The translations under genes and the position numbers were made by a program. Positions 8,079-58,606 of a DNA stretch of 64,000 bases are shown here, one piece after another (within the stretch, counting starts at the first letter, position 1; each line of letters opens with the position of its first letter). Origin of the DNA: Bacteroidia bacterium (lineage in GTDB: Bacteria > Bacteroidota > Bacteroidia > SpSt-205); the NCBI GenBank assembly GCA_026003215.1, contig BPGV01000001.1, positions 1,105,001-1,169,000 on the forward strand, in the 5' to 3' direction. Below the pieces are notes generated by a model that saw only the letters and a program-made list of their open reading frames with translations, made no database searches and was not told the origin of the DNA.

Positions 8079-9083
8079 AACCGCTGCCTCTTCCCACAAC
8101 ATCGGTTCATAGTACGACCACCATAGCGAAGGTACCGGCCCTTCCTCCCTATACTGCCGCCAAAAGGCATCCCATGCCGCACTCACCCCTACCCGATACG
8201 CGCAAGGAACCCCCAAAGCCGCCGCCTCGTAAAACTTGCCCGGTATCTTCCCTACCAAATGCGGCAACGGCTGATAAAATGCATACAAAACCTGCGCATG
8301 GCGCTGGAGATTTTGTATAACGGGATAGGGCACAAAACGCCCGTATATACACAGCCACGCTGCATGATGTCTAAGCTTCTCCCGGATAAAGTGTAGCTCC
8401 TTGGGGTTTTTCAAGCTTCCGGCTATCACAAAAGGGCGATAAGGCTCTTGAGCAGCTTTTTCTACGGCCTCATACACCCCCCAACTTTGGGTAAGGTTTC
8501 CCGTGTAGAGGGCATAGGTCCCTACCAGGTCTGGGAGGAGAGGTGGGGCTTGCTCTACAGGTACAAACGCATTTGGGAAAAAACGGGTACGCAGTAAGGG
8601 GAAATGCGGCGCATACACGTACTCCGCCAGCCAGTACCGCTCCACACCGCACACCCCCCATCGCAGAAATGCCCACCCTACCCGCCGCAGCCACCGCCCC
8701 GCCCAAGAATAGACGGGATCGTGCCGAAAGTTTCGCGGATAATCTTCCCATACGTCCCATATTCTCGGCTGCTTCCGTTCCAGAAATGCCCTAAAAACCG
8801 CTACGGGATTAGTCAGTATGAGTATGCCGCCCGAAGGCAAGGGAAGGGGCTTTGTAAGGGTATAGGCCGGAACCCCCTGGGGCGGCTGGGTAAGGACTTC
8901 CCAAGTGCAGGGGTCCAAGTAGCGTTGGAGCGGTCCTTCTATATAGACAGGGGCAAGAGGCTGGCCCCATACTTCTGTGGGGAAGCGCTGAGCTAAGCTG
9001 CGGGCCAAGCGATAATACCCCCTGGGATGATAGCCTACATCGCGTCCCAACCACAGGATAAAGCGCCTTTGGGTAGATGCCAT
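8049..9083 (-). CDS. Glycosyltransferase, GT4-like (GT-B fold)
   Basis: 344 residues. The N-terminal half (FILWLGRDVGYHPRGYYRLARSL) and the C-terminal half (YALYTGNLTQSWGVYEAV, then KIPGKFYEAAALGVPCAY) match the two Rossmann-like domains of a GT-B glycosyltransferase. The KFYEAAALGVP stretch corresponds to the nucleotide-sugar-binding K-x-E region of GT4 enzymes. Donor and acceptor cannot be told. It is divergent from the macro-domain gene with only 11 bp between the start codons, so the promoter of that gene lies against this gene's start. No clear TAnnTTTG box is seen in front of it; TACCTTGC about 20 nt upstream is the nearest candidate. Confidence 0.7.
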   Translation of the reverse strand: MASTQRRFILWLGRDVGYHPRGYYRLARSLAQRFPTEVWGQPLAPVYIEGPLQRYLDPCTWEVLTQPPQGVPAYTLTKPLPLPSGGILILTNPVAVFRAFLERKQPRIWDVWEDYPRNFRHDPVYSWAGRWLRRVGWAFLRWGVCGVERYWLAEYVYAPHFPLLRTRFFPNAFVPVEQAPPLLPDLVGTYALYTGNLTQSWGVYEAVEKAAQEPYRPFVIAGSLKNPKELHFIREKLRHHAAWLCIYGRFVPYPVIQNLQRHAQVLYAFYQPLPHLVGKIPGKFYEAAALGVPCAYRVGVSAAWDAFWRQYREEGPVPSLWWSYYEPMLWEEAAVLWERFYEGG

Positions 9084-9090
9084 AGCTTTG
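9083..9090 (+). promoter_or_regulatory. -7 box TAGCTTTG of the macro-domain gene
   Basis: Perfect TAnnTTTG, 4 nt before ATG 9095. Its first base is also the first base of the divergent glycosyltransferase start codon, so the two genes share this site. Confidence 0.7.
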
Positions 9091-9094
9091 CCGT

Positions 9095-9598
9095 ATGGGC
9101 AAGGTAGAGATTATCCGGGGAGACCTTACGAAGGTAGGAGCGGATGCGATTGTAAATGCAGCTAATGAGGCGCTTCTGCCGGGGGGAGGGGTATCCGGGG
9201 CTATTCACCGGGCAGCGGGGCCGGAGTTAGCTGAGGCTTGCCGAAAGGTAGCGCCTTGCCCCACCGGCGAGGCGCGCATTACGCCCGGCTTTAGGCTGCC
9301 TGCCAAGTACGTCATCCACACGGTAGGACCTATTTGGCGGGGCGGCACCCACGGCGAAGCCCAACTCCTCCAAGCCGCTTACCGCAATAGCCTGGCCTTA
9401 GCCAAAGCCCACGGCCTGCACACCGTGGCCTTCCCCTCAATCAGCACAGGTATCTACGGCTACCCCGTGGAAGAAGCCGCTCCCCTGGCCTTACAGGTAC
9501 TTGTAGAAGAAGCCCCCCACTTTGATGCCCTCTACCTGGTAGCCTTTGACGAAAAAACCTACCAAGCCTACCTACAAGCTTGGAGAAAGTTTCAGTAG
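9095..9598 (+). CDS. Macro-domain protein (O-acetyl-ADP-ribose deacetylase type)
   Basis: Single macro domain, 167 residues, MacroD/YmdB-like. It shows the ADP-ribose-binding elements GDLTKVGADAIVNAANE (8-24), the loop LLPGGGVSGAIHRAAG, the HTVGPIWRGG strand and the second phosphate loop FPSISTGIYGYP. Enzymes of this type remove ADP-ribose from proteins and hydrolyse O-acetyl-ADP-ribose, the by-product of sirtuins. A sirtuin (cobB) is encoded 49 kb away in this window. The start follows a -7 box by 4 nt, so the mRNA is predicted leaderless. The 3' end overlaps the convergent proS by 7 bp. Confidence 0.92.
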   Translation: MGKVEIIRGDLTKVGADAIVNAANEALLPGGGVSGAIHRAAGPELAEACRKVAPCPTGEARITPGFRLPAKYVIHTVGPIWRGGTHGEAQLLQAAYRNSLALAKAHGLHTVAFPSISTGIYGYPVEEAAPLALQVLVEEAPHFDALYLVAFDEKTYQAYLQAWRKFQ

Positions 9599-11096: not shown

Positions 11097-11894
11097 ATGA
11101 AAACCGCAGCGAAACTTGGGGGCACCACTTTGGCGCTCCTGCTCTTGTGGGGGTGTGGAGCCAGCCGCTCCACAACCTCCGCTACCGATGATACCTATCT
11201 CACCGCAAAGGAACGTGCCCAACTCAGCCAAAATAAATCCACTACTTCCTCCTCCTCAGGAGATGTAGATGCGCGAGAGGATAACTATGAGTCTTCCGAG
11301 CGTGCTACGCAGGCCCAACGAGGGGAGGACGATTATTGCTACAGCTGCCGGGTGCGTCGCTATTCCACAGGGGTATGGTATGACCCTTGGATGGACCCCT
11401 GGTATGGATGGAACCGGAGTGCGTGGTGTGGCCCAGGATGGGGGGGCTGGACTCCGGGCTGGAGCTATAGCTGGGCCTGGCGGCCAGGCTGGTATTATAC
11501 CCCCGGCTGGGGCTGGACCTATTACAGCGGCTATTGGGGACCTACCTACTATGCGGGCCCTGGATGGAGCTACTGGAACACCTATTACGACCCTTATTGG
11601 GGCTGGGGCGCCTCTTCTACGCCCTCTCGCCGCTATAACTACACGCCGCGCACTTATACCTCGCCGAGGGGTACTACCACCTATACTCCCCCGCGAGGCA
11701 CTATTGTCACACCGTCGGGCACCCCGCCGCGACGTAGCGCTACCCCCACCTCACCCAGTAGGCCTACTTATACCCCTTCCACGGGAGGGGGACGTAGTAC
11801 CGTTGCTCCCTCAGGTGGGCGGCCCAGCTCGGCCGGCGGCATGACCGGAGGCGGTATCCGTTCCTCCGGGGCTGGAGGCGCACGCCCACGCTAA
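11097..11894 (+). CDS. Lipoprotein with Trp/Tyr/Gly-rich low-complexity core
   Basis: 265 residues. A type II signal peptide ends in lipobox LLWGC (cysteine near residue 20). A Ser/Thr-rich linker with acidic residues follows, then two cysteines (CYSC near 79). From about 88 to 175 the protein is dominated by W, Y, G and P in irregular repeats such as GWTPGWSYSWAW and YDPYWGWG. The last 90 residues are Ser/Thr/Pro/Gly-rich with TYTPPRG-type repeats and a positive end. I recognise no named domain. It is probably an outer-membrane-anchored surface or matrix protein. Its stop codon TAA forms the first three bases of the next gene's -7 box. Confidence 0.75.
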   Translation: MKTAAKLGGTTLALLLLWGCGASRSTTSATDDTYLTAKERAQLSQNKSTTSSSSGDVDAREDNYESSERATQAQRGEDDYCYSCRVRRYSTGVWYDPWMDPWYGWNRSAWCGPGWGGWTPGWSYSWAWRPGWYYTPGWGWTYYSGYWGPTYYAGPGWSYWNTYYDPYWGWGASSTPSRRYNYTPRTYTSPRGTTTYTPPRGTIVTPSGTPPRRSATPTSPSRPTYTPSTGGGRSTVAPSGGRPSSAGGMTGGGIRSSGAGGARPR

Positions 11895-11899
11895 CTTTG
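11892..11899 (+). promoter_or_regulatory. -7 box TAACTTTG of the cystathionine beta-synthase gene
   Basis: Perfect box, 4 nt before ATG 11904. Its TAA is also the stop codon of the preceding lipoprotein gene. Confidence 0.7.
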
Positions 11900-11903
11900 G
11901 CCC

Positions 11904-13277
11904 ATGTGGCATAAAAACCTTTTAGAACTCATCGGCCGGACCCCCCTCGTGCAGCTTAATGCCGTCACACGGGGGGTGCCGGCCACCGTCTTAGCCAAAG
12001 TAGAATACTTCAACCCCGGCCATAGCGTCAAAGACCGCATCGCCCTCAAGATGATAGAAGAGGCCGAACGCGCCGGCCTCTTGCGGCCCGGCGGCACCAT
12101 CGTAGAAGCCACCTCCGGCAACACCGGCATGGGTTTGGCCCTTGTAGCCGCTGTCAAAGGCTACCGCTGCATATTTACCGTGCCGGATAAACAATCCCGC
12201 GAAAAAATAGACGCCCTACGCGCCTTAGGCGCCGAAGTCATCGTCACCCCTACCAACGTGCCCCCCGAAGACCCGCGTTCTTATTATAGCGTCGCTAAAC
12301 GGCTCGCCCAGGAAATCCCCGGCGCCTTTTACCCTAACCAATACGACAACCTCAATAACCGCCAAGCGCACTACGAAACCACCGGCCCCGAAATCTGGGA
12401 GCAGACCGAGGGACGCATCACCCACTTTGTGGCGGGTATGGGTACCACAGGTACTATATGCGGCATAGCCCAATACCTCAAAGAGCGCAATCCCGCCATC
12501 CAAGTGATTGGCATAGACACGTACGGCTCCCTCTTCCAGAAGCTTCATGAAACCGGCCAAATAGACCCCCGAGAGATCTACCCCTACCTCACCGAAGGCA
12601 TCGGCGAAGACATCGTCCCCGGTAACTTAGACCTATCCCTTATAGACCGGGTTATCAAGGTCAGCGACAAGGACGGCGCCCTCATGGCCCGCAAGCTGGC
12701 CCGCTATGAAGGGCTCTTTGTGGGATGGTCCAGCGGCTCGGCCGCCTGGGGTGCCCTCCACATCGCCCGAGAACTCTCCCCCAAAGACCTCGTCGTCGTA
12801 CTGCTCCCGGACCACGGCACCCGTTACCTCAATAAGATCTACAACGACGCTTGGATGCGGGCCCAAGGCTTCTTAGAAGCTACCGCAGAGCTCACCATTC
12901 AAGATGTGCTGCGGGCCAAAGCCCGAAAAACCCCTGGTCTCGCTACCGTAGCCCCCACCGACCCCCTCCGCAAAGCCGTGGAACTCATGCAGCGGTACGA
13001 AATTTCCCAGCTTCCCGTACGCGAAGGCGACCGCATCTTGGGTCTCCTCACCGAGTCCCGCCTGATTGAAGTCCTCATGGATGATCCCCACGCCAAAGAC
13101 CAGTCTATTGGCACTTATATGACGGACCCGCCTGCTATTGTGCTTCCTTCCACACCTGTGGACATTGTATCCAAAATGCTTACCCGGGAAATGCCGGCCG
13201 TCTTAGTCCAGTTAGACCACGGGGAGTGGGATATTGTGACGCGCTCGGACATTTTACACTCGCTGGTGGAGGGGTGA
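11904..13277 (+). CDS. cbs: Cystathionine beta-synthase with C-terminal CBS-domain pair
   Basis: PLP enzyme condensing serine and homocysteine to cystathionine in reverse transsulfuration. 457 residues. The fold-type II catalytic domain (1-325) shows ELIGRTPLVQL, the PLP lysine K43 in GHSVKDRIA, the substrate loop EATSGNTG and the phosphate-binding GMGTTGTICG. From about 331 to the end are two CBS motifs (EISQLPVREGDRILGLLTES and PAVLVQLDHGEWDIVTRSD), which usually bind adenosyl ligands such as SAM and regulate activity. The long form with NQYDNLNNRQAHYETTGPEIW and TEGIGEDIVPGNLDL indicates CBS rather than cysteine synthase. No cystathionine gamma-lyase is in the window. Predicted leaderless; the stop overlaps the next GTG (GTGA). 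Confidence 0.93.
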   Translation: MWHKNLLELIGRTPLVQLNAVTRGVPATVLAKVEYFNPGHSVKDRIALKMIEEAERAGLLRPGGTIVEATSGNTGMGLALVAAVKGYRCIFTVPDKQSREKIDALRALGAEVIVTPTNVPPEDPRSYYSVAKRLAQEIPGAFYPNQYDNLNNRQAHYETTGPEIWEQTEGRITHFVAGMGTTGTICGIAQYLKERNPAIQVIGIDTYGSLFQKLHETGQIDPREIYPYLTEGIGEDIVPGNLDLSLIDRVIKVSDKDGALMARKLARYEGLFVGWSSGSAAWGALHIARELSPKDLVVVLLPDHGTRYLNKIYNDAWMRAQGFLEATAELTIQDVLRAKARKTPGLATVAPTDPLRKAVELMQRYEISQLPVREGDRILGLLTESRLIEVLMDDPHAKDQSIGTYMTDPPAIVLPSTPVDIVSKMLTREMPAVLVQLDHGEWDIVTRSDILHSLVEG

Positions 13278-15204: not shown

Positions 15205-16592
15205 GAAGTATACCCTAAGAGTTTAAGGACTTGCTTACTATTCTGCTCTTCATACAGCACCTCAAAGTGAGGCTGCCCATCCCGATCCCGCCGTACCAAA
15301 ATATGCCGAGGGGTCGGAATAAGGCAGTGGTGGATACCCCCTACCCCACTCAGCGCCTCTTGATAGGCACCAGTATGGAAAAAACCGATATACATTTCCT
15401 TTCGCGTTTTAGGCAAAAAAAGTACATTAGTATGGGCATCTGTGTGGTAAAAGTCCAGCTCATCACAAGTTATGCCCCCTAAAATCACACGCTCATATTC
15501 GGCGCTCCAGTTATTGAGGGGTAGGATAATATATCGTTGCTTCAAGGCCCAGATATCGGGGAGTATGGTCATAAGGCTACCGTCTAAAATCAGCCAACTT
15601 TCTCGGTCATTTTGTCTTTTTCGCTCTAAAACCTTAAAGAATACAGCGCCCGACTCGGCTACGGTGTAGCTGCCAAACTCCGACACAATATCGGGTTCTT
15701 CTATCCCGTGCTGTACGCAGGCTGCTTTGATGCGCCGCACAATCTCCCCTATCACATACGGATAATCAAAGTCAAAGTCCAAAGAGTTGCGAAATGGCAT
15801 GCCTCCCCCAATATTGAAATAGCGCAGCGTAGAGGCTTCCTTTTTAAGCTCGCAATAGATATGTATCATTTTTTCCAGCTCATTCCAATAATAAGGCGTG
15901 TCTCGGATGCCAGAACTAATAAAGAAGTGTAACATTACAAGCTGGAAGTTGGGGTTAGGTTTGATTTTATCCAGATAAAGATCTACCACATCTTCGGCGC
16001 GAATGCCTAAGCGGCTGGTATAGACCGGAAAGTCTGGCCGCTCTTCAATAGAAACACGGATGCCGAGTTTCGCAGGAACCTCAAGTTCACTAGCGTAAAA
16101 GTTAATCTCACGCTTAGTATCCAATACAGGTATCAGATTTTGAAAGCCATCATGCAGCAAATCTACAATTCGTTGGGCATAGGCCGGCGTTTTATAGCCG
16201 TTGCATATAATCATGGTGTCTGTTTTAGAGATGAGGCTTCGCCGTTCCAACGCCTCCACAATCTCTATATCAAATGCCGAAGATGTTTCTATATGTACAT
16301 TATGGCGGAGAACCTCCTCCAATATATGCCGGAAATGCGAGCTCTTAGTACAGTAGGCATAGTGATACTGGCCATGGTAATCGTTCTTAAGAAAAGCCTC
16401 TTGGAAATACAGGCGTGCCTGCTGGATCTTCTTCGCAATAATAGGGAGATACGTCAAGCGCAAAGGCGTACCGTAAGTTTCTACGAGCTCTATGAGGTTA
16501 ATACCGTGAAAGTATAGCTCATCGTCTATGACTTCAAAGCCCTCTTGGGGAAAGCCTACGCTCAGGTCCAAGAACTCGGCGTAACTTTGCAC
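15201..16592 (-). CDS. speA: Arginine decarboxylase, Bacteroidota-type (biosynthetic, PLP)
   Basis: Decarboxylates arginine to agmatine, opening polyamine synthesis. GTG 16592 gives 463 residues and a normal N-terminus (SYAEFLDLSVGFPQEGFEV), and it lies exactly 4 nt from a near-consensus -7 box (CATATTTG). The open frame continues upstream to 16838 but that extension has no family character and runs through the divergent arginase gene. The alanine-racemase-fold PLP lysine is K83 in CTKSSHF, with ETSSAFDIEI, FNIGGGMPF, the catalytic-cysteine region GGITCDELDF and GAYQEALSG later. Forms an operon with folD. Together with nspC (26.2 kb) it marks a carboxy(nor)spermidine polyamine route. Confidence 0.92.
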   Translation of the reverse strand: MQSYAEFLDLSVGFPQEGFEVIDDELYFHGINLIELVETYGTPLRLTYLPIIAKKIQQARLYFQEAFLKNDYHGQYHYAYCTKSSHFRHILEEVLRHNVHIETSSAFDIEIVEALERRSLISKTDTMIICNGYKTPAYAQRIVDLLHDGFQNLIPVLDTKREINFYASELEVPAKLGIRVSIEERPDFPVYTSRLGIRAEDVVDLYLDKIKPNPNFQLVMLHFFISSGIRDTPYYWNELEKMIHIYCELKKEASTLRYFNIGGGMPFRNSLDFDFDYPYVIGEIVRRIKAACVQHGIEEPDIVSEFGSYTVAESGAVFFKVLERKRQNDRESWLILDGSLMTILPDIWALKQRYIILPLNNWSAEYERVILGGITCDELDFYHTDAHTNVLFLPKTRKEMYIGFFHTGAYQEALSGVGGIHHCLIPTPRHILVRRDRDGQPHFEVLYEEQNSKQVLKLLGYTS

Positions 16593-16596
16593 CCTG

Positions 16597-16604
16597 CAAA
16601 TATG
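16597..16604 (-). promoter_or_regulatory. -7 box variant CATATTTG for arginine decarboxylase
   Basis: CAAATATG on the plus strand; one mismatch to TAnnTTTG (first T is C). Exactly 4 nt before GTG 16592, which supports that start. Confidence 0.5.
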
Positions 16605-18083: not shown

Positions 18084-18862
18084 GAAGTCCGACGTTTCTT
18101 GTAGTGCTGTAGCCAGACCTCATCCCACACCGCTCGGCTGTATTCGGCTTGTTTGCGCAGGAAAAGGTAGCCTGTTTCTATGGACGCCCCCCGTTCCTGC
18201 GCGCGCTGGGCAAATAGCGTCGGATTGGGATGGTAAATGAGCTCCCATACCACCCACCCCGGCTGAATAGCCGAGAGGGGAAAAGGAGGCATCGCTTGCA
18301 TCTCGGGGAACATGCCTATGGGGGTAGCTTGCACAAGGAGTGCCCCCTTAGGAAAGCTTGCGTGGCTTGCTTCTTCATACCCTAAAACAGTATGCGGCCG
18401 AGGGAAAGGCAGCTGTTTAGTCGGCGTGCGGGAAAAGAAAGTGATAGGAATATCTGGCAAAAGCTCGGCGTGCGCCCAGGCCACAGCACGAGCTGCCCCG
18501 CCCGTCCCTAAAATATATACGGCCTCCCAGGGGGCATATACCTGCATAAACTCCCCTAAGAGATAGCGGGCAGTAAGGTAGTCAGTATTATGACCGCGCC
18601 ATATGCCGCCAGGAAACACACATACGGTATTGGCAGCCTGGATAGCTTCTACTTCGGGGGCCTTTTGGGCCAACAGGGGATATATCCATTCCTTATACGG
18701 TGTGGTAACGTTGAAGCCTATCCAGCCTCGCCGGGTGACCTCTTCTTTTAGACTTTCTGGGGAAGAAGGCGTAAGTTTTTCATAAACCAATCCGTACATA
18801 CGACGGAAGTACCAAGGCGAGAAGGACAACACTTTTTCTCCGGCAAGTAGGCCCAAGCGCAT
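18080..18862 (-). CDS. aroE: Shikimate dehydrogenase
   Basis: Reduces 3-dehydroshikimate to shikimate with NADPH in aromatic amino acid synthesis. ATG 18862 (260 residues) is chosen because it starts the family fold (RLGLLAGEKVLSFSPWYF) and lies 5 nt behind a perfect -7 box; a longer frame reaches 18904 but overlaps the divergent promoter. The substrate-site serines are in LSFSP, the catalytic lysine is K57 in FNVTTPYKE, with the HNTDYLTA motif near 93 and the nucleotide loop ILGTGGAARAV. Convergent with the barrel gene, divergent from the esterase gene with 29 bp between starts. Confidence 0.93.
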   Translation of the reverse strand: MRLGLLAGEKVLSFSPWYFRRMYGLVYEKLTPSSPESLKEEVTRRGWIGFNVTTPYKEWIYPLLAQKAPEVEAIQAANTVCVFPGGIWRGHNTDYLTARYLLGEFMQVYAPWEAVYILGTGGAARAVAWAHAELLPDIPITFFSRTPTKQLPFPRPHTVLGYEEASHASFPKGALLVQATPIGMFPEMQAMPPFPLSAIQPGWVVWELIYHPNPTLFAQRAQERGASIETGYLFLRKQAEYSRAVWDEVWLQHYKKRRTS

Positions 18863-18867
18863 CGGCT

Positions 18868-18875
18868 CAAAGATA
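18868..18875 (-). promoter_or_regulatory. -7 box TATCTTTG of aroE
   Basis: CAAAGATA on the plus strand, 5 nt from the start at 18862. Back to back with the esterase box, 5 bp between the two. Confidence 0.7.
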
Positions 18876-18880: not shown

Positions 18881-18888
18881 TACCTTTG
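18881..18888 (+). promoter_or_regulatory. -7 box TACCTTTG of the esterase gene
   Basis: Perfect box, 3 nt before ATG 18892. A TTG inside the box could serve as an earlier start only if transcription began upstream of it. Confidence 0.7.
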
Positions 18889-18891
18889 GGC

Positions 18892-19668
18892 ATGGCGGTA
18901 CCACTTCACTTTGAGCGGTGGGGAAACGGGCTGCCTGCTTATATTTTCCTTCATGGCTTCTTGGGAAACTTAGATAACTGGCGCACGATTGCCCGGTCGC
19001 TCGCCCTCCCAGGACGTTATTACTTAATAGATGCCCGAAACCATGGCCGTTCCCCCCACACTGCTACCCACCGCTACCCCGACATGGCCGAGGACCTTAT
19101 CTATCTCTTGGATCAAGAGGCTCTCCCCTCTGCGCATGTATTAGGCCATTCTATGGGCGGGAAGACCGCGATGTATGCTGCGCTTCATTTCCCTGAACGC
19201 ATAGCCTCCCTTATCGTCGTAGATATAGCCCCACGGGCTTACGCCGGGGGACATGAAGCCCTCCTCGCCGCCCTGGCGCAAGTCAATCTCCAAGTGCAAC
19301 GCCGTGAAGAAATAGAAGCCCAACTCGCGCACACCATAGCTGACCCCGGCATTCGACAGTTTCTGCTCAAGAACCTCGCTCGGCAAGCCGACGGTACCTT
19401 TTACTGGCGGATAAACCTCCCTGTGCTGATACGAACGTATCCTTTTGTAGGAGAAGCCATAACGGGACCAGCATATAAAGGGCCGGCTCTTTTTCTACGC
19501 GGCGAGCGGTCCACCTATATTCGTGCAGAAGACGAAGCTGTCATCCGCAGCTTATTTCCTCGGGCAGAGCTGCGCGTGATTCCGAACGCAGGACACTGGG
19601 TCCATGTGGATAATCCGGCGGCCGTGCTTAGCGAAATACAACGCTTCTGGGGGGCGCTTTCAAAATAA
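18892..19668 (+). CDS. Alpha/beta-hydrolase, YbfF-like esterase
   Basis: 258 residues. HGFLGNLDNW at 21-30 provides the oxyanion hole, S87 in GHSMGGK is the nucleophile, the DIAPRAY stretch follows, and the histidine is in NAGHWVHVDNP near the C-terminus. The order and the VVDIAPRAY motif are typical of the YbfF short-chain acyl esterase group; the natural substrate is unknown. ATG 18892 lies 3 nt after a perfect -7 box and is preferred to TTG 18886 inside that box. The 3' end overlaps the next convergent gene by 9 bp. Confidence 0.87.
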   Translation: MAVPLHFERWGNGLPAYIFLHGFLGNLDNWRTIARSLALPGRYYLIDARNHGRSPHTATHRYPDMAEDLIYLLDQEALPSAHVLGHSMGGKTAMYAALHFPERIASLIVVDIAPRAYAGGHEALLAALAQVNLQVQRREEIEAQLAHTIADPGIRQFLLKNLARQADGTFYWRINLPVLIRTYPFVGEAITGPAYKGPALFLRGERSTYIRAEDEAVIRSLFPRAELRVIPNAGHWVHVDNPAAVLSEIQRFWGALSK

Positions 19669-20420: not shown

Positions 20421-20428
20421 TATCTTTG
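20421..20428 (+). promoter_or_regulatory. -7 box TATCTTTG of the M43 metalloprotease gene
   Basis: Perfect box, 4 nt before ATG 20433. Confidence 0.7.
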
Positions 20429-20432
20429 GAGC

Positions 20433-47290: not shown

Positions 47291-49099
47291 CTATCCCTCT
47301 GCTTGACGGTAAGGCAAAATAAGCCCTTGGCGAAGGGCTATTTCCGCCCGCTGCCGCAAAAGCACCTGATGCAGCACTAAGTGCTCTTCATAACTCGGGG
47401 TCTCTGGCAAAAGAGTCTCTAATATGCGTAGATTTTCTTGGAGGAGATGTTGTACATGCGCCAGGTGGAGTAGATTTAGGTTGCTTTCTGCGATCTGAAC
47501 GGGGTCTTCTACGAGGGGGCTATCATCCCAGGTACGCCAGTGTTCGCTCAAGGTATATCGCTCTAAGAGGAGGCCTGTAGCCCAATCTTGCACCTCTGGG
47601 AGGAGCGCTTCCATGAGGTCTTGTAAAGAAGGAGGGCGATTCTCACCCCAACTACAAAAGGCTTTTCGTAAAGCTTCGGCTTCTGGTTGGGTAAAAGTCA
47701 GGTGCTTAAGCTCCTCTTGGAGCACAGCCCACAGCGGTAACCCTCCAAAATCCACCTCTGGATATGTAAAAGCCACCCGCAAAAGCTCCCGTTCTGCAGT
47801 CACCCGCGTAGGAGGCACTGCTTCTGGGGAACGGGGGGGGGCCTCTATCCGCTCAAAGCTTTCCCAAAACTCGGGCGGAATATGGAGGCTCGTCGCGATC
47901 TCCTCCGCATAAGCCCGTCGCAGATACGGGTCAGGCAAAGCCTGTAACCCTTGCCCCAACTTTTGCAGGAGGGTATATCGCTCTTGGGGCGAAGGGGTAG
48001 GTCCCACCCGCTGCGCCAGATACAAGGGCCAGCTTAGGCTGTTGTGGAGGACTTCTTGAAAAGCTTCTGGTCCTTTCTCTTGGAGGAAAGCGTCGGGATC
48101 TTTCCCCTCCGGCACATGAGCTACCCGCACAAAAAACCCTGCCCGCAAAGCCGGTTCTATGGCCCGTTCGGCGGCGGCCTGACCCGCAGAATCGCTGTCA
48201 TACAGAAGTACGACTTCTCGGGTGTAGCGGCGCAGCCGTATGAGGTGCTCCTCCGTGAGGGCTGTACCGCACGTAGCCACTGCCTGTGTAAAGCCTGCCT
48301 GATGTAAGCTAATCACATCCATGTAGCCTTCCACGATGAGAGCGGCCCCCTCTTTACGCAGCACAGGACGCGCCAGCCAAAGCCCATAGAGCACCTCTGA
48401 TTTACGGTAGAAAGGCGTCTCTGGCGAGTTAAGGTACTTAGGCTGGTCCGCCTCATCGGCTAACAGGCGACCCGCTAACGCCACTACGCCCCCCTGCTCC
48501 TCTATAACCGGAAATATCACTCGCCCCCGAAACCTATCATACAGCCGCCCTGTGCCCTCCTGACGTAGCGCTACTCCCCACTTGACCAGGGTTTCTTCTT
48601 CGTAGCCTAAACGTAAGAGGTACTCTGTAAGGGCTTGTCCCTCGGGCGGGGCATACCCCAGCCGAAACCGCTCTATGCTCTCTCGTGTCACCCCACGGCG
48701 GACCAAATAGGCCTCCGCTGGACTCCCCGTTAATCTCCGCTGATAAAACTGCACCACCGCCTCATACAAGGCCAAGTAGCGCTGCCGCTCACGCGAGGTA
48801 TAGCGCTCTTCTTGGGTGTCAGGTACTGCTATGCCGTACTTCTCTGCCAGCTTACGGAGGGCCTCTCCATACGAGAGGCCTTCCATCTCCATCACAAAGC
48901 GAATCACATCGCCGCCCTTCCCGCTGGCAAAACACTTGAAGATCTGCTTCGTAGGGCTCACCGCAAATGAAGGCGTGCGCTCCGGCTTGAAAGGCGATAG
49001 CGCCCAGTAGTTAGACCCGCGCTTCTTAAGGGGAATATATTCGCTGACCACCTCCACAATATCCGCCCGACGCAAGACCTCATCGCGCAGCCAGCTCAT
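47291..49099 (-). CDS. dnaG: DNA primase
   Basis: Makes RNA primers for replication. 602 residues. The N-terminal CHC2-type fold (RADIVEVVSEYIPLKKRGSNYWAL to KGGDVIRFVMEMEGLSYGEAL) is present. Of its four zinc ligands only the third remains: the Cys-x-x-His is Ser-Pro-Phe-Lys (SPFKPERTPSF) and the second pair reads KCFASG. The TOPRIM domain has the glutamate in LIVEGYMDVISLHQAG and the acidic pair in LLYDSDSAGQAA. The C-terminal helicase-interaction domain (about 430-602) is helical. A near-consensus box (TACATTTA) lies 4 nt from the start. Confidence 0.94.
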   Translation of the reverse strand: MSWLRDEVLRRADIVEVVSEYIPLKKRGSNYWALSPFKPERTPSFAVSPTKQIFKCFASGKGGDVIRFVMEMEGLSYGEALRKLAEKYGIAVPDTQEERYTSRERQRYLALYEAVVQFYQRRLTGSPAEAYLVRRGVTRESIERFRLGYAPPEGQALTEYLLRLGYEEETLVKWGVALRQEGTGRLYDRFRGRVIFPVIEEQGGVVALAGRLLADEADQPKYLNSPETPFYRKSEVLYGLWLARPVLRKEGAALIVEGYMDVISLHQAGFTQAVATCGTALTEEHLIRLRRYTREVVLLYDSDSAGQAAAERAIEPALRAGFFVRVAHVPEGKDPDAFLQEKGPEAFQEVLHNSLSWPLYLAQRVGPTPSPQERYTLLQKLGQGLQALPDPYLRRAYAEEIATSLHIPPEFWESFERIEAPPRSPEAVPPTRVTAERELLRVAFTYPEVDFGGLPLWAVLQEELKHLTFTQPEAEALRKAFCSWGENRPPSLQDLMEALLPEVQDWATGLLLERYTLSEHWRTWDDSPLVEDPVQIAESNLNLLHLAHVQHLLQENLRILETLLPETPSYEEHLVLHQVLLRQRAEIALRQGLILPYRQAEG

Positions 49100-49103
49100 G
49101 GCC

Positions 49104-49111
49104 TAAATGTA
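49104..49111 (-). promoter_or_regulatory. -7 box variant TACATTTA of dnaG
   Basis: TAAATGTA on the plus strand; one mismatch (last G is A). 4 nt from the start at 49099. Confidence 0.45.
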
Positions 49112-49121: not shown

Positions 49122-49129
49122 TACCTTAG
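49122..49129 (+). promoter_or_regulatory. -7 box variant TACCTTAG of the DUF4159 gene
   Basis: One mismatch (TTAG for TTTG), 4 nt before ATG 49134. Confidence 0.45.
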
Positions 49130-49133
49130 AAGC

Positions 49134-49781
49134 ATGCGAGGGCTTCTTCTGCTGGGGGCATTCCTCTGGGCACAAACCCGCCCCCTGGTCAAAATAGGCA
49201 AGCTCCACTATGGCGGCGGCGGGGATTGGTACGGCAACCGCGCTTCCCTCCCTAACCTCCTCCGGTACATCCAAGAACACGCCCCTATCCCGGTGCAACT
49301 CCATGAAGATATAGTCAAACCTTCCGCGCCTAACTTAGGTGACTACGCCTTGCTTTACGCCTCCGGCCACGGAAATATAGACTTCACCGATGAAGAGGTG
49401 AAAAACCTACGCAAGTACCTCCAAAATGGTGGCTTTTTGCTCTTAGACGACGATTATGGCATGCACGAATACGCCAAAAAAGCCTTACAAAAGCTTTTTC
49501 CCGAAGGACAGCTTATCCCCGTGCCGGCAGACCATCCGATTTTTCACTGCTATTATGACTTTCCGTATGGCCTCCCCAAAGTGCATGAGCACGACAATAA
49601 GCCACCTGCCCTCTATGGGCTTTTTTATGAAGGTCGGTTGATAGCCATCCTCACCCATGAAGCTGATTTAGGGGATGGCTGGGAAGACCCCCACGTGCAT
49701 AAAGATCCGCCCGAAGTACGCGAGCTGGCCTTTAAGATGGGGGTAAATATCCTGTGCTACGTTCTCACCCATCCGTGGTAA
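49134..49781 (+). CDS. DUF4159 family exported protein
   Basis: 215 residues. Signal peptide (MRGLLLLGAFLWAQT), then KIGKLHYGGGGDWYGNRASLPNLLRYIQE, DYALLYASGHGNIDFTDEEVKNLRKYLQNGGFLLLDDDYG and ILTHEADLGDGWEDPHVHKDPPEVRELAFKMGVNILCYVLT. This order (GGGDWY, ASGHG, LDD) is diagnostic for DUF4159, a glutamine-amidotransferase-like fold often seen near N-terminal VWA or gliding-related genes in Bacteroidota. No enzymatic role is established. The next gene starts 14 bp later with its own promoter box. Confidence 0.88.
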   Translation: MRGLLLLGAFLWAQTRPLVKIGKLHYGGGGDWYGNRASLPNLLRYIQEHAPIPVQLHEDIVKPSAPNLGDYALLYASGHGNIDFTDEEVKNLRKYLQNGGFLLLDDDYGMHEYAKKALQKLFPEGQLIPVPADHPIFHCYYDFPYGLPKVHEHDNKPPALYGLFYEGRLIAILTHEADLGDGWEDPHVHKDPPEVRELAFKMGVNILCYVLTHPW

Positions 49782-49783: not shown

Positions 49784-49791
49784 TACCTTTG
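49784..49791 (+). promoter_or_regulatory. -7 box TACCTTTG of the OstA-like gene
   Basis: Perfect box, 4 nt before GTG 49796, which it supports as the start. It begins 2 nt after the DUF4159 stop codon. Confidence 0.7.
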
Positions 49792-49795
49792 ACCG

Positions 49796-51250
49796 GTGCG
49801 CTACCTAAGGTATTGGGGGATAGTAGGACCTCTCCTGTGGGCCCAGGCGGTCTTCATAGAAAACGCCGATGAGCTGGGAGGCACACCAGAGGAGCGGGTT
49901 CTACGGGGCAATGTACGCCTGCGCCAAGACACCCTTATCCTCCTCTGTGCCGAAGCCCGCCTGCGCGAAGATGGCAGCTTCTCCGCACGGGGAAAGACCC
50001 AAACTATCATAGGCCAAAGCGGCACCATCACCGCCGAAGAGCTTCACTATGCCCCCCAAAAGCGCTTGCTAAGCTATCTGGGAAGTGTCCGGGCAGAGTT
50101 TCCCCCAGCCACCTTTCAGTCGCCCAGTCTTTTTTATGACCGCACCACCGAAGTTGTCTTTTACACCGAGGGTGGCACCCTCCGAGACACCACCGGCACC
50201 ATCCAAAGCCGCTGGGGTAAGTATCAGGTGCCCACAGAGACAGCGTACTTTTCGGGGAAAGTACGCCTCCAGCGGGAGGGGTATATCGCCCTCACCGACT
50301 CGCTGATATATGAAACACACGCCTATAAAGCGACTTTTCCCCTGCCGGTGTATTTTTTGGACACCGCCCGTTCGGATACGCTTTATGCTCGCCGGGCCCA
50401 GTGGTATCGCCTCACCCAAGAAATTTACGGCTATGATAGCGTAGCTTACTGGGATACCCTGCACTTTTTGAAAGCCCAAGCGGCGTACCTGCACGCCGGC
50501 TGCGACTCAGGGAGCGCCTCCTGTGAAGTGCATTACACCCGTAAAGACAAGCGCGTATGGGCTTGGGGCGATAGCGCCCAGTGGTTCCGAGACACCCTCC
50601 ACCTCTGGGAAAATGCCGCTCTCTTCTGGCGCGACTCAGCCGAAAAAGCCTTCCTACAAAGCTACCATCTGTATGCCAAGGATTCTGTCCTCTGGGCCAC
50701 CGGTCTGGTAGAGCTTCTTCAGCCGCCGCTCTGGGCTCGAAGCGACACCCTCCTCTACGACACTACCCAGAAAACCATCCATTTACGAGGTTCGGCGTGG
50801 TTAGGGGATACGACTACGCAGTTGTGGGCCGATAACATACGGCTGCACCTGCAAGGTAAAAATCCCGACTCCGCTTGGGCCGCAGGCAACGTACGCCTTC
50901 TTTTACAGGCAGATACGGCTTTGCATTTTTTCCATCAAGTACGCAGTGACTCAGCGGTAGCTGCCTGGGATAGCTCAGGGAAGCTCCACACTTTACAGTT
51001 TAGAAAGGCGGTACAGGTGCTCTATTATCAAGCGGGAGAGAAGGGCTGGCAAGGCGCGCACCATGTTACCGGTACAGCGCTCTGGCTACGCATGGACAGT
51101 ACCCAAAGCCCTGCATACGCCCGCATTAGCGAACATCCCCAAGGGGTGTATTATCCCCTCCAGAGCTTTTTAGACCGTCCTCTGTGGCTGCCGAAAAGTC
51201 GGTGGTTATGGCCTTCGGAGCGCCCTCGGTGGCCTTTCCCCCAGAAATAA
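49796..51250 (+). CDS. OstA-like (LptA/LptD N-terminal-type) exported protein
   Basis: 484 residues from GTG. Signal peptide (RYLRYWGIVGPLLWAQA). The body is a chain of beta-jellyroll repeats of the OstA type, each about 25 residues with recurring D-L-Y-D and G-V-L units: VLRGNVRLRQDTLILLCAEARL, ITAEELHYAPQKRLLSYLGSVRAEF, TAYFSGKVRLQREGYIALTDSLIY, and later TLLYDTTQKTIHLRGSAWLGDTTTQLWADNIRLHLQGK. Such proteins form the periplasmic LPS bridge or a related structure. It differs from LptD in having no C-terminal barrel. Leaderless prediction. Confidence 0.82.
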   Translation: MRYLRYWGIVGPLLWAQAVFIENADELGGTPEERVLRGNVRLRQDTLILLCAEARLREDGSFSARGKTQTIIGQSGTITAEELHYAPQKRLLSYLGSVRAEFPPATFQSPSLFYDRTTEVVFYTEGGTLRDTTGTIQSRWGKYQVPTETAYFSGKVRLQREGYIALTDSLIYETHAYKATFPLPVYFLDTARSDTLYARRAQWYRLTQEIYGYDSVAYWDTLHFLKAQAAYLHAGCDSGSASCEVHYTRKDKRVWAWGDSAQWFRDTLHLWENAALFWRDSAEKAFLQSYHLYAKDSVLWATGLVELLQPPLWARSDTLLYDTTQKTIHLRGSAWLGDTTTQLWADNIRLHLQGKNPDSAWAAGNVRLLLQADTALHFFHQVRSDSAVAAWDSSGKLHTLQFRKAVQVLYYQAGEKGWQGAHHVTGTALWLRMDSTQSPAYARISEHPQGVYYPLQSFLDRPLWLPKSRWLWPSERPRWPFPQK

Positions 51251-51253: not shown

Positions 51254-51261
51254 TATATTTG
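51254..51261 (+). promoter_or_regulatory. -7 box TATATTTG of the lipocalin-like lipoprotein gene
   Basis: Perfect box, 4 nt before ATG 51266, in a 15-bp gap between genes. Confidence 0.7.
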
Positions 51262-51265
51262 ACCT

Positions 51266-51709
51266 ATGCGTAGAGGAACGCTGGCATTCGCTATGCTGCT
51301 GGCCATCGCCATAGAAGCTTGCCAACCCGACAAGCCTGCCCCGGCAAGCCCTACTACGGCTACCCTCTTGACTGGGGGGAATAGCCGTACCTGGCGTCTC
51401 CAGGCGCTTTCTGAGCGGGGGAATAGCCAACCTATCCCCCCTTGCCGAGCCGATGACCGGTGGACTTTCCACAGTGACGGCAGGGGTACCTTTCAAAATA
51501 CTACTGCCTGCGATGCGAATGACCCCAACGACCCTACCCCCAGCGCCTCCATCCAGTGGCGCCTCACCAATAGCGATCGTTTCCTCGTGATACAAAACCA
51601 AACGCTTTTCCTCAATAGAGAGATCATCCAGCTTTCCGACAATATCTTGGTCTGGGAATACACCGGAAATAACGGGGCCTTAGTCCAAGAAACTTGGGTG
51701 CCTAACTAA
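51266..51709 (+). CDS. Small lipoprotein, lipocalin-like
   Basis: 147 residues. Signal peptide with lipobox AIEAC (cysteine near 19). The mature part begins LLTGGNSRTWRLQAL, continues PPCRADDRWTFHSDGRGTFQNTTACDAND, and ends in alternating beta strands (IQWRLTNSDRFLVIQ, EIIQLSDNILVWEYT). The SRTWRL start, the C-x-x-DDRWTF-DG-GTF motif and the final W-Y pattern match lipocalin-like lipoproteins of Bacteroidota. Ligand unknown. The last 4 bp overlap the convergent phosphatase gene. Confidence 0.7.
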   Translation: MRRGTLAFAMLLAIAIEACQPDKPAPASPTTATLLTGGNSRTWRLQALSERGNSQPIPPCRADDRWTFHSDGRGTFQNTTACDANDPNDPTPSASIQWRLTNSDRFLVIQNQTLFLNREIIQLSDNILVWEYTGNNGALVQETWVPN

Positions 51710-53463
51710 GGGACACGCACCCCTAACACCAAAATATCATCGGTTTGACGGGTAGTGCCCATCCAGCGGCTAAGTTCGGACTCTAAAAGCATATTTTGCT
51801 GACGGGCAGGCTGATCGGCGATCAACTCAAAAAACTCATACAGCTTGCGCAGCTGGTAGCGTTTGCCCTCTGGACTAAGCTGGTCGGTAAAGCCGTCCGA
51901 AAAGAGATACACCATATCGCCGGGCATGAGATCCAAGGTATGCAGCGAAAACTCTGGGGCTTCCCCTTCGTACGGGGCACCTAAGGTGATGCGGTCCGGC
52001 CGAACCTCTATGCCTTTACCCTGCCGCACTAAAAAGAGGGGACGACCCGCGCCGGCATAGAGGAGTTTGTGCCGCTTAGGATCCACTTGCACTAAGGCCA
52101 GCTCCATGCCTTCCTGAAACTGCTGATACCGAGCATCCTCATGCTGTAAGGCCGCCCGCAGACGCAAGTTCAAGAGATAGAGAATTTCCGATGGCTTGAA
52201 GACCCCTTCCAGTTCTACAATCTGGCGCAAGAGCGTATTCGCAATAATCGTCATGAAGGCCCCTGGAATCCCGTGTCCTGTACAGTCTCCCACCGCGATG
52301 ATAGCCTTACTTAGGCGCTGCGCATACCAATAAAAATCCCCGCCCACAATCTCCCGCGGCTGATATAACAGAAAGCTCTCGGGGAAAGCCCGCTGGAGCT
52401 CCCCCCAGGGGGGGAAGATAGCCCTCTGTACACGCTGCGCATACCGCAAGCTGGCTAAAATATCTTCATTTTGTTGGCGCAGAAGGAGGCTCTGCCGCTC
52501 TATCTCTTCTTTTTGGCGAATAACTTCTTCGGTGCGCTGGCGCACCCGCTCCTCCATCTCTGCATATAACTGGGCATTATGGAGCGCTACCGCCGCAGGC
52601 GCCGTGAAAAGCTTAAGAAACTCCACCTTTTCAGGTTCAGCGGCCAGAGGATGGGTTCTATGGAGGAGATAGACCAGCCCTATGAGCCGTCCTTGATACA
52701 CCAGCGGCAAGAGCAGAATATCCGCCACGCCTAAGCTCTCCCACTCAGAATGCCTGTGCCAGAACTGCACATTTTCGGCCTGGGATAAATGGAAGTTTTC
52801 GCGCAAGCGGGCCACATGTTCTACTAAGGGAGCAAATACGCGGTTTTCTTCTAAAAGCGGTATAGGGTTATAAGCCCTTGGCTCATGATCGGTAGCTTCT
52901 ACATACCCCACCACTTGTAAAGCTGTGGCTTGGGTAGGGTCGGGTACGATGAGGAAAGCTGCCTCAGCGCCGCTATTGTCTATGGCTATGCGCAGGAGTT
53001 TGAAAATGAGCCAGTTCAGGCGCACTTCCCCCGTAAGGGAAAGGGAAACCCGATGCAGCTCCGATAGAATAGCCGCTTGACGCTCTTGGGCCCGACGCTC
53101 TAAGTAGCGTTGCCATAAAAGCCGCACATACGAACGGAGGGTGGAGCACGGCTCATCTACATGGGCGACGACATAGGGAGGGGCTTCCTCCGTGACTGGC
53201 CCGCCTTGGGTCAAGGCAAGCCCATAGCCCTTAGGCCAGCGCTGAAGGGCTTCCTCTAAGAAAGACGCTCCACCGGCAAGCGGCGCCAAAAAAAGGAAGA
53301 GTTCCTCTCCTGCCAGAATAGACCGCTCTATGTAAGCCTGCGCCTCTTGGGCTTGGGAAAACACCTCTACACGCGCTGCACTTAGCTCCTCTTCAAGCTG
53401 AGCACGCAACTTTTCCTTGCTTTCGCGATCCGGCCACCAGACCACTACCAATGGAGCCCCCAT
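51706..53463 (-). CDS. GAF-SpoIIE (PP2C-type) serine phosphatase
   Basis: ATG 53463 gives 585 residues and lies 6 nt behind a perfect -7 box; a longer frame to 53562 would cross the divergent porX gene. An N-terminal region of about 110 residues resembles a degenerate receiver (PLVVVWWPDRESKEKLRAQ). A GAF domain spans about 140-310 (ILSELHRVSLSLTGEVRLNWLIFKLLRIA to APAAVALHNAQLY). A coiled coil (ERVRQRTEEVIRQKEEIERQ) leads to the SpoIIE domain (about 360-585) with YQPREIVGGDFYW, VGDCTGHGIPGAFMTIIANTLL, YLFSDGFTDQ and TDDILVLGVRV, the metal Asp residues of PP2C. Probably acts on an anti-sigma-antagonist-like or FHA-type phosphoprotein. Confidence 0.88.
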   Translation of the reverse strand: MGAPLVVVWWPDRESKEKLRAQLEEELSAARVEVFSQAQEAQAYIERSILAGEELFLFLAPLAGGASFLEEALQRWPKGYGLALTQGGPVTEEAPPYVVAHVDEPCSTLRSYVRLLWQRYLERRAQERQAAILSELHRVSLSLTGEVRLNWLIFKLLRIAIDNSGAEAAFLIVPDPTQATALQVVGYVEATDHEPRAYNPIPLLEENRVFAPLVEHVARLRENFHLSQAENVQFWHRHSEWESLGVADILLLPLVYQGRLIGLVYLLHRTHPLAAEPEKVEFLKLFTAPAAVALHNAQLYAEMEERVRQRTEEVIRQKEEIERQSLLLRQQNEDILASLRYAQRVQRAIFPPWGELQRAFPESFLLYQPREIVGGDFYWYAQRLSKAIIAVGDCTGHGIPGAFMTIIANTLLRQIVELEGVFKPSEILYLLNLRLRAALQHEDARYQQFQEGMELALVQVDPKRHKLLYAGAGRPLFLVRQGKGIEVRPDRITLGAPYEGEAPEFSLHTLDLMPGDMVYLFSDGFTDQLSPEGKRYQLRKLYEFFELIADQPARQQNMLLESELSRWMGTTRQTDDILVLGVRVP

Positions 53464-53469
53464 TTTCCC

Positions 53470-53477
53470 CAAAGATA
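53470..53477 (-). promoter_or_regulatory. -7 box TATCTTTG of the SpoIIE phosphatase gene
   Basis: CAAAGATA on the plus strand, 6 nt from the start at 53463; 21 bp from the porX box. Confidence 0.66.
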
Positions 53478-53498: not shown

Positions 53499-53506
53499 TA
53501 TCTTTG
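53499..53506 (+). promoter_or_regulatory. -7 box TATCTTTG of porX
   Basis: Perfect box, 4 nt before ATG 53511. Confidence 0.72.
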
Positions 53507-53510
53507 AAGC

Positions 53511-55073
53511 ATGCGTTCCCGCATCCTTTGGGTAGACGACGAAATAGAACACTTAGAACCACATATTTTGCATTTGACCCAGCGGGGCTTTGAGGTGCTC
53601 CCCGTACGTCATCCTTCAGAAGTGTTGGAAACCCTCAAAAATCAGCCCGTAGATCTGTTGATTGTGGATGAACACATGCCAGGCATGCAAGGCATAGACC
53701 TGGCTCGCCAAGTTAAACGCACCTATCCCTACCTCCCCGTTATCATGGTCACCAAAGATGAAGCGGAACGGCTCATGGAAGCCGCCGTCGGGGTAGATAT
53801 TGCTGACTTCCTCATCAAGCCTGTGAAGCCCCAACAACTCCTTTCTGCTTGTAAACGCCTCTTGGCCAGCGGCCCCCTCCAGCGCCAAGAAACGGTAGAA
53901 GCCTATCAACGCGAATTTCGTCGCCTCAGTACCCTGATTGCCTTCGGTCCCACCCGGGAGGAATGGTGGGGCCTCTATAAAGACCTCGTTCACTGGGAGC
54001 TCGCCTTAGAAAAAACCGAAGCGACCGACCTACGTGACATCTTAGACGGCCAAAAAACCGAAGCTAATCATGTATTTAGCCGCTTCTTTACCCAAAACTA
54101 CTTAGAGTGGGTCAATAGCACAGAACGCCCGCCCCTCTCGCCAGACGTGCTGCCCAACTACTTCCTACCGCATCTCTCCTCGAAGTCGGCCCAACCCACC
54201 GTCTTAGTACTCTTAGATGGGATGCGCTACGACCAGTGGAAAGTCATAGAAGGCCTCCTCAGCCCCTACTACGATACCGCCGAAGAGCATCTCTTTTTTT
54301 CTATTCTGCCCACAGCCACCCAATATGCCCGTAATAGCCTGTTTTCAGGACTTTTCCCCGCCGATATTGCCCAGCGCTTCCCACGTTACTGGGCCGACGA
54401 CGACGAAGAAGGCGGGAAGAACCTCTTTGAAGAAGAGTTTTTCAACGACTTCCTCTTACGGCATAAAATATCCCTCAAAGTAGGATATGTCAAAGTACTT
54501 CGCCCAGAAGATAGCAAAAATCTATTAGGTCAGCTACCCCAGCTCATGCATAACCACGATATTATTCTGCTTATCTTCAACTTTTTAGACCTTATGGCCC
54601 ATACCCGCGTTCAGATGAATATCCTCAAAGAACTGGCCGCTAACGATACAGCCTTACGGGCTACCACGCGTGCGTGGGTAGAAACTTCGGCTTTTTTCCA
54701 GACCCTAAAGCTCCTCCCCCAATATACCTCGCAGGTATTCCTCACTACCGACCATGGTTTTGTACAAGTAAGGCGGCCTATTCGGGTACTGGGCGACCGA
54801 GAAACGACGACAAACCTCCGCTACAAACAAGGCCGCAACCTCAACTATGACCGAGACGAAAAGGGGGTATTTCATATTCGCAAGCCGCACGAAGCTCGCC
54901 TCCCGCGCGCCACAGCCAGCTCTACCTACCTTTTCGCTTGTGAGGACCACTTTCTCGTATATCCTACCAACTACAACGATTATGTACGCCTCTATCGAGA
55001 CTCTTACCAGCATGGCGGCGTAAGCTTAGAAGAACTTATCGTACCCTTTGTGCGACTCCTCCCTAAAAGTTAG
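53511..55073 (+). CDS. porX: PorX, response regulator with PglZ domain (T9SS regulator)
   Basis: 520 residues. The receiver domain (1-115) has the acidic pair D9/D10, phospho-acceptor D53 in LLIVDEHMPGMQ and lysine K103 in FLIKPVKP. A helical linker follows, then a PglZ (alkaline-phosphatase-superfamily) domain from about 215: VLVLLDGMRYDQW with the metal Asp, FSILPTATQYARNSLFSGLFP with the Thr nucleophile region, FNFLDLMAH, TTDHGFVQVRRP and HGGVSLEELIVPF near the C-terminus. PorX acts with the sensor PorY to drive T9SS gene expression in other Bacteroidota, and its PglZ domain is a phosphodiesterase. Neither porY nor the extracytoplasmic sigma factor is adjacent. Confidence 0.95.
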   Translation: MRSRILWVDDEIEHLEPHILHLTQRGFEVLPVRHPSEVLETLKNQPVDLLIVDEHMPGMQGIDLARQVKRTYPYLPVIMVTKDEAERLMEAAVGVDIADFLIKPVKPQQLLSACKRLLASGPLQRQETVEAYQREFRRLSTLIAFGPTREEWWGLYKDLVHWELALEKTEATDLRDILDGQKTEANHVFSRFFTQNYLEWVNSTERPPLSPDVLPNYFLPHLSSKSAQPTVLVLLDGMRYDQWKVIEGLLSPYYDTAEEHLFFSILPTATQYARNSLFSGLFPADIAQRFPRYWADDDEEGGKNLFEEEFFNDFLLRHKISLKVGYVKVLRPEDSKNLLGQLPQLMHNHDIILLIFNFLDLMAHTRVQMNILKELAANDTALRATTRAWVETSAFFQTLKLLPQYTSQVFLTTDHGFVQVRRPIRVLGDRETTTNLRYKQGRNLNYDRDEKGVFHIRKPHEARLPRATASSTYLFACEDHFLVYPTNYNDYVRLYRDSYQHGGVSLEELIVPFVRLLPKS

Positions 55074-57869: not shown

Positions 57870-58594
57870 GACCGTAAAAGTTCTACCAGGCGGACGGTGC
57901 CTTCGCTGGCAGGCGCCGCTATTACCTCTACCCCGTGCGTTAGCGTAGGACGCGGGTCTATTAGAAACTTTCGGGCATGTTCCGCTTCATACACCAGGCC
58001 GGCGGCCGGATACACCTGGAGGGAGCTGCCAATCACAACGAATATATCGGCCCGGCGCGCCCACGCCTCCGCTATCGGATACGCCGGCACCTCTTCCCCA
58101 AACCATACCACATGCGGACGCAGCTGAGAGCCCTTTTCACACTTATCCCCTAAACGTATCGGCGCATATCCAATCTCATATATGAGGCTTTCGTCAGCGG
58201 TGCTCCGAGCCTTGATTAGCTCGCCATGCAGGTGTAAAATATAAGTGGAGCCGGCCCGCTCATGCAGGTCATCCACATTTTGGGTAATCACGATTACCGT
58301 GTAGTCTTTTTCCAGTTCTTTGAGGAGGAGATGGGCGTGGTTAGGCTGCACCTCGGCCAGTTGCGCACGGCGGGCGTTATAAAAGTCTAAAACCAGCTGG
58401 GGGTTACGTTGCCAGGCTTCTGGGGTAGCGACTTCATAGATGGAATACTTTTCCCAGAGGCCGCCCGAGTCGCGAAAGGTAGAGAGGCCACTTTCGGCGG
58501 AGATGCCCGCACCCGTGAGCACGACGAGGAGCCGGCCTGGCTCCGCTTTGGGCGGCTGCTGGAGCCAGGCCGGCCAGGGAGGAACCCGCCGCAT
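57866..58594 (-). CDS. cobB: Sirtuin, NAD-dependent protein deacylase (class III-like)
   Basis: Removes acyl groups from lysine using NAD+, producing O-acyl-ADP-ribose. 242 residues. GAGISAESGLSTFRDSGG at 28-45, FYNARRAQL near 71 (the Y-x-x-R of desuccinylase-type enzymes), TQNVDDLHERAG, catalytic H123 in LHLHGEL and GSSLQVYPAAGL near 190. The zinc-binding cysteines are missing, as is usual for Bacteroidota members. The macro-domain protein at 9.1 kb could process its product. Leaderless promoter. Confidence 0.93.
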   Translation of the reverse strand: MRRVPPWPAWLQQPPKAEPGRLLVVLTGAGISAESGLSTFRDSGGLWEKYSIYEVATPEAWQRNPQLVLDFYNARRAQLAEVQPNHAHLLLKELEKDYTVIVITQNVDDLHERAGSTYILHLHGELIKARSTADESLIYEIGYAPIRLGDKCEKGSQLRPHVVWFGEEVPAYPIAEAWARRADIFVVIGSSLQVYPAAGLVYEAEHARKFLIDPRPTLTHGVEVIAAPASEGTVRLVELLRS

Positions 58595-58598
58595 GACG

Positions 58599-58606
58599 CA
58601 AAGGTA
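58599..58606 (-). promoter_or_regulatory. -7 box TACCTTTG of cobB
   Basis: CAAAGGTA on the plus strand, 4 nt from the start at 58594, in the 18-bp gap before the next stop codon. Confidence 0.7.

Follow-up and report, generated by a model that had tools for sequence, protein, structure and literature searches.

Bacteroidota lack Shine-Dalgarno (SD) sequences, and how they choose their start codons is an open question. The published transcript maps of the phylum judged leaderless mRNAs too rare to explain that choice: leaders under 10 nt make up 3.7% in B. thetaiotaomicron, where the median leader is 32 nt (PMC7366714); 5.5% are leaderless or near-leaderless in F. psychrophilum, with a median leader of 24 nt (PMC9723704); and 13% have leaders of at most 10 nt in F. 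johnsoniae, with a mean leader of 33 nt (PMC6847099). Zheng (2011), whose method was tuned to a different box, reported such genes from one of 37 Bacteroidetes/Chlorobi genomes (PMC3160421). Outside the phylum, about 60% of the genes of D. deserti are leaderless (PMC9031893). A literature search, with most subscription journals outside its scope, returned no description of default leaderless genes in Bacteroidota. Judging from its genome sequences, the family from which the present DNA comes looks like an exception, with leaderless initiation as the default for first genes. We describe it below, beginning with a 64-kb window, i.e. the whole stretch of DNA that was analysed.

Boxes before the start codons of the window

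The original prediction listed 17 perfect TANNTTTG boxes a few nucleotides before start codons. All 17 were found where it had placed them, and its gene names agree with the Pfam domains at every one. In 14 cases the end of the box lies exactly 4 nt from the start codon (12 ATG, 2 GTG); in what follows, the gene is given first, then its box and the span from box to start codon. On the forward strand, the 4-nt spacer leads to the ATG of a macro-domain gene (9095-9598; TAGCTTTG, 9083..9097; Pfam Macro), a cystathionine beta-synthase-like gene (11904-13277; TAACTTTG, 11892..11906; Pfam PALP+CBS), an M43 peptidase gene (20433-22622; TATCTTTG, 20421..20435; Pfam M43), a transaldolase gene (39905-40558; TACCTTTG, 39893..39907; Pfam TAL_FSA), a paaA-like gene (42821-43816; TATATTTG, 42809..42823; Pfam PaaA_PaaC), purD (46013-47284; TAACTTTG, 46001..46015; Pfam GARS), a lipocalin-like gene (51266-51709; TATATTTG, 51254..51268; Pfam Lipocalin_4) and a porX-like gene (53511-55073; TATCTTTG, 53499..53513; Pfam Response_reg+PglZ). 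The same arrangement on the reverse strand precedes tatA (66 aa; TAGCTTTG, 26127..26141; Pfam TatA), an FHA gene (30973-31398; TACCTTTG, 31396..31410; Pfam FHA) in a 16-nt gap behind a same-strand gene, a PD40 gene (34507-35574; TATCTTTG, 35572..35586; Pfam PD40) and the Sir2-family gene cobB (57866-58594; TACCTTTG, 58592..58606; Pfam SIR2). GTG takes the place of ATG in a reverse-strand glycosyltransferase gene (38735-39877; TACTTTTG, 39875..39889; Pfam GT4), from which the transaldolase gene diverges, and in a forward-strand OstA-like gene (49796-51250; TACCTTTG, 49784..49798; Pfam OstA_2) in a 14-nt gap behind a same-strand gene. The other three distances are likewise as predicted, all before ATG: 3 nt for the forward-strand alpha/beta hydrolase (esterase) gene (18892-19668; TACCTTTG, 18881..18894; Pfam alpha/beta hydrolase), 5 nt for the reverse-strand aroE-like gene (18080-18862; TATCTTTG, 18860..18875; Pfam Shikimate_dh_N) and 6 nt for the reverse-strand SpoIIE-domain gene (51706-53463; TATCTTTG, 53461..53477; Pfam SpoIIE).

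Three of the four one-mismatch cases that had been named were recovered, each with a 4-nt spacer: a speA-like gene starting with GTG (15201-16592, reverse strand; CATATTTG, 16590..16604), dnaG starting with ATG (47291-49099, reverse strand; TACATTTA, 49097..49111) and a DUF4159 gene starting with ATG (49134-49781, forward strand; TACCTTAG, 49122..49136). The fourth, nspC, has no certain placement; it is likely the 374-aa gene at 26157, which carries CATTTTTG at 5 nt. Perfect boxes also lie 10 nt before the gene at 31415-32869 and 12 nt before that at 61747-62538, and one (TATCTTTG, 60212..60219, reverse strand) stands 18 nt upstream of tRNA-Lys (60120-60193), i.e. the same box is found before an untranslated RNA.

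The description of all these genes as first genes of their transcription units holds less firmly for FHA, OstA, lipocalin and cobB: each of them starts just 14-18 nt behind a gene on the same strand, so it is in part the box that makes them count as first genes. Box and 4-nt spacer are squeezed into these gaps (31396-31415, 49781-49796, 51250-51266 and 58594-58613 of the window), and it is possible that they represent leaderless promoters inside gene arrays.

Enrichment across the genome and the nature of the box

Pattern counts were made over the whole source genome (2,268,343 bases, one contig), and further counts over an 864-kb sample comprising the window and 40 stretches of 20 kb (38% of the genome). 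One of these stretches, L017, starts with a 2000-base run of N (G000:C1:793001-795000). Genome-wide enrichment at 4 nt, set beforehand as the test that could refute the prediction, is strongly present: TANNTTTGNNNNATG, i.e. TANNTTTG-N4-ATG, occurs 223 times as against 16 for the reversed pattern. In the sample, where box-to-ATG distances were counted without any gene calls, ATG is found 20, 87, 38, 25, 29 and 17 times at 3, 4, 5, 6, 7 and 8 nt past the box, respectively, and about 9 times at distances elsewhere; the 29 alternative orders of these letters give no comparable 4-nt peak there. Together with the genome-wide count, the Poisson probability of this peak in the sample (P ~1e-55) excludes chance. 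The spacing of 4 nt is the commonest one across the genome, as predicted, but "exactly 4" was an overstatement: the spread is 3-8 nt, and 4 nt accounts for about 48% of the excess in that range, a share exceeded by the 14 of 17 boxes in the window.

First genes were examined with a simple gene-calling script that is blind to the box and leaves starts uncurated. By its calls, a perfect box lies 3-8 nt before the start of 45% of the 176 divergent genes in the sample (49% when other in-frame starts count too), and a box with at most one mismatch before 65-71%; for the reversed box the figures are 0-1% (perfect) and 1-7% (one mismatch). In about a third of the divergent first genes no box lies at 3-8 nt even when one mismatch is tolerated, and in 36 of 291 first genes the perfect box is present solely at 9-80 nt. 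"Default", as applied to leaderless first genes, means a majority and not all of them. Among genes at most 25 nt behind a same-strand gene, 16% have a perfect box; most same-strand neighbours in the source genome overlap or are at most 25 nt apart. SD motifs at positions -18 to -4 of the divergent genes stand at 0%, below the control positions and with no enrichment.

On the ribosome side, a search for 16S rRNA throughout the source genome sequence did not find it, and the 14-mer matches that we considered as a 16S anti-SD in relatives are chance matches, not rRNA. bS21 is present in the source genome, which rules out its loss as a cause.

The TANNTTTG box is enriched upstream of genes, as expected of the -7 element of a sigma-ABfr promoter. 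In F. johnsoniae G is avoided at both variable positions, TAHHTTTG (PMC6847099); among 73 boxes at 4 nt in the source genome G makes up 8% at each, the same avoidance. Column frequencies of these 73 boxes, with spacing held constant, show no clear -33 TTTG signal; that element is not evident in F. johnsoniae (PMC6847099) and is not a firm defining feature. Promoters of this type go with a short, divergent primary sigma factor; a search for it gave one RpoD_Cterm match, a 300-aa frame that scores beneath the curated cut-off. The transfer RNAs are informative here: a perfect box lies within 18 nt of the 5' end in 12 of the 17 tRNAs of the sample; the reversed box is so placed in none of the 17, and of the five box-less tRNAs four come directly after another tRNA. 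The occurrence of the same box before tRNAs indicates that it is a transcription signal, and the box of tRNA-Asn, 4 nt from the tRNA, limits the transcription start to at most about 4 nt past it. Start sites in F. johnsoniae lie 4-5 nt downstream of the same box (PMC6847099); by that published spacing, a 4-nt gap would put +1 on the A of AUG. The commonest spacing in the source genome is thus the one that places +1 on the start codon, as in leaderless genes.

The shoulder of spacings at 5-8 nt raises the question of whether leaders are short (about 3-10 nt) rather than absent, with a start nearer the box or a variable spacing, and ordinary SD-less initiation. The sole genome of the sister family, in which the boxes of divergent genes lie mostly at 6-7 nt, could be read in the same manner, and initiator preferences at the expected +1 are not decisive: a purine/pyrimidine signature there is weak, occurs in box-less genes too and was not used as evidence. 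We nevertheless regard this as unlikely: the most frequent spacing equals the one published from elsewhere in Bacteroidota and sets +1 on the A of AUG, the tRNA-Asn gene is too close to its box (4 nt) for a later start, and a 4-nt gap cannot give a leader longer than 4 nt if that box is the one used. Alternatively, the box might be a translation signal, namely a U-rich element aiding ribosome binding on leadered mRNAs made from a promoter farther upstream. Such a role would agree with the way in which the box hugs start codons in the 864-kb distance count, and the sequence just before the start does tune initiation in SD-less Bacteroidota (PMC6847099). However, the same perfect box precedes those 12 untranslated tRNA genes, matches the known sigma-A -7 consensus exactly, occurs about three times as often in front of divergent first genes as in front of closely packed downstream ones and, in orthologues outside the family, sits farther upstream at the ordinary promoter place (see below), all of which makes a translation signal very improbable.

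Spread over the family and relocation of promoters

The source family comprises 12 genomes, i.e. the source genome, ten of the same genus and one of another genus (relatives G393-G403); many of the genomes compared in this work are metagenome-assembled (MAGs). The same-genus relatives are MAGs mostly labelled "Bacteroidia bacterium" (SKW103, SKYB116, KatS3mg026 and others), which we take to be of hot-spring origin. The 4-nt pattern is enriched in all 12 (for instance, 192 versus 8 and 152 versus 6 for the reversed pattern). The only sister-family genome in the same order has 50 versus 39, and with its boxes at 6-7 nt it is an intermediate state; a 4-nt trait of the whole order is unsupported by it. 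A second family of the class, f93 (G438, G446, G447), is enriched as well (356 versus 75 in its best genome); its genomes are of low GC, about 44% of their implied leaders are at most 4 nt, and it is possibly an independent, partial switch. Hence, the trait is one of the source family and not of Bacteroidota at large; at least one further family has it in weaker form.

Individual loci conform to this pattern. The porX box is perfect and exactly 4 nt from the start in six of nine relatives and 3 nt in one, and none of the nine lacks a perfect box 4-9 nt before the divergent SpoIIE gene; the sequence around these boxes has changed among the relatives while the boxes stayed. A distant relative (38% identity) has no such box. 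The rpsU gene of the source genome (G000:C1:1778600-1779500) has its box 6 nt before the ATG and no SD, and the box lies at 5-7 nt in eight of nine family members, whereas in all eight readable genomes outside the family the nearest box is 23-51 nt from the ATG. This difference indicates that orthologous promoters have moved. Three of those eight outside genomes have an SD in the rpsU leader, and self-control of rpsU through an SD is reported for F. johnsoniae (PMC10783764); in the source genome such SD-based self-control should have been lost.

We consider it highly probable that promoters moved onto start codons throughout the family, giving leaderless first-gene mRNAs and the loss of leader-borne controls. 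Under this model the box would serve as the -7 element in housekeeping promoters of the Bacteroidota sigma-ABfr type, and in the common ancestor of the family promoters would have shifted beside start codons at the expense of the 5' leaders. RNA polymerase would then begin most first-gene transcripts on the A of the start codon or 1-4 nt before it, and ribosomes are predicted to initiate on the 5'-terminal AUG or GUG of the leaderless mRNA. The later genes of operons, tightly packed or overlapping, probably rely on coupling. Controls carried by leaders, such as the TPP and cobalamin riboswitches, would have vanished along with them.

The original prediction also proposed a comparison with other Bacteroidota, and in it the source family stands out. 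With the same script as used for the source genome, four control Bacteroidia (G427, G049, G012, G445) give medians of 13-19 nt for the implied leader, and 4-23% of their leaders are at most 4 nt long; the corresponding values are 1 nt and 74% in the source genome (Fisher P ~5e-20 against the controls) and 1 nt and 84% in the other genus of its family. That most genomes of the phylum would look alike if counted in this way is scarcely credible: a 393-genome survey of the phylum does show a small 4-nt excess in many members of the class, and 3.7-13% of leaderless or near-leaderless mRNAs have been published, but the source genome tops the survey in excess per Mb (about 91, the next about 43, as read from the survey table) and this, like the gap to the controls, already contradicts it. 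The predicted leaderless default for first genes is accordingly supported by the 4-nt peak, this comparison and the tRNA boxes, in the restricted form of a majority of first genes with spacings of 3-8 nt.

Riboswitches and comparison with known systems

Rfam searches over at least 844 kb of the source genome returned tRNAs only. The TPP riboswitch is found in none of the 12 family genomes and in 26 of 28 other Bacteroidia, and the counts for the cobalamin riboswitch are the same (in both cases the source genome was covered by the 864-kb sample). The gene usually under TPP control, thiC, is kept in 11 of the 12, and in at least nine family genomes a box precedes its ATG by 4-7 nt; in the source genome this reads TATATTTG-ACAC-ATG. 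All seven ordinary genomes found to have thiC carry a TPP element about 1 kb or less upstream on the same contig. In the sister-family genome the thiC box is 23 nt away from the gene, there is no TPP element, and one cobalamin riboswitch is present. As the 12 genomes form one clade, their shared absence should be counted as a single event rather than 12 separate ones. We offer it only as a hypothesis that leader loss caused riboswitch loss in the family; both riboswitches persist, unlike in the source family, in the control genomes of Thermus and Deinobacterium, whose phylum is rich in leaderless genes, which indicates that loss of leaders need not force their loss. On balance, we lean towards a switch of the whole family from leadered to leaderless mRNAs in which leader-based control (riboswitches, SD-type control of rpsU) was abandoned.

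If this is true, the family is a natural experiment on the loss of 5' UTR regulation in bacteria, possibly repeated in a second family. The sister family and the ordinary relatives let the switch be traced gene by gene, and the fact that two common riboswitches are missing hints at a cost of leader loss that can be tested. As a practical rule, the box would mark true start codons and correct gene starts in the group.

Among described systems, the sigma-ABfr promoters of B. thetaiotaomicron, F. johnsoniae and F. psychrophilum (PMC7366714, PMC6847099, PMC9723704) share the TAnnTTTG -7 box and the lack of SD sequences with the source family, and their -33 element is weak or absent; in those species, however, leaders are the rule, as against an implied median of about 1 nt here. 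Mycobacterium (PMC3898074, PMC9031893) resembles the family in having a leaderless class beside leadered genes, but about 20-25% of its genes are leaderless with SD-led genes alongside, whereas here most first genes would be leaderless and there is no SD signal. In the "-10 region adjacent to ORF" of Deinococcus-Thermus (PMC12340547), a core promoter box is likewise fixed a few nucleotides before the start codon of many genes, with conservation across the clade and many extremophile members in both cases. That box is TANNNT, in another phylum, as opposed to the TAnnTTTG of sigma-ABfr; Deinococcus-Thermus keeps a class of genes with ribosome-binding sites, whereas no SD class was detected in the source genome; and leaderless expression has been shown there by experiment, whereas in the source family it is deduced from sequence.
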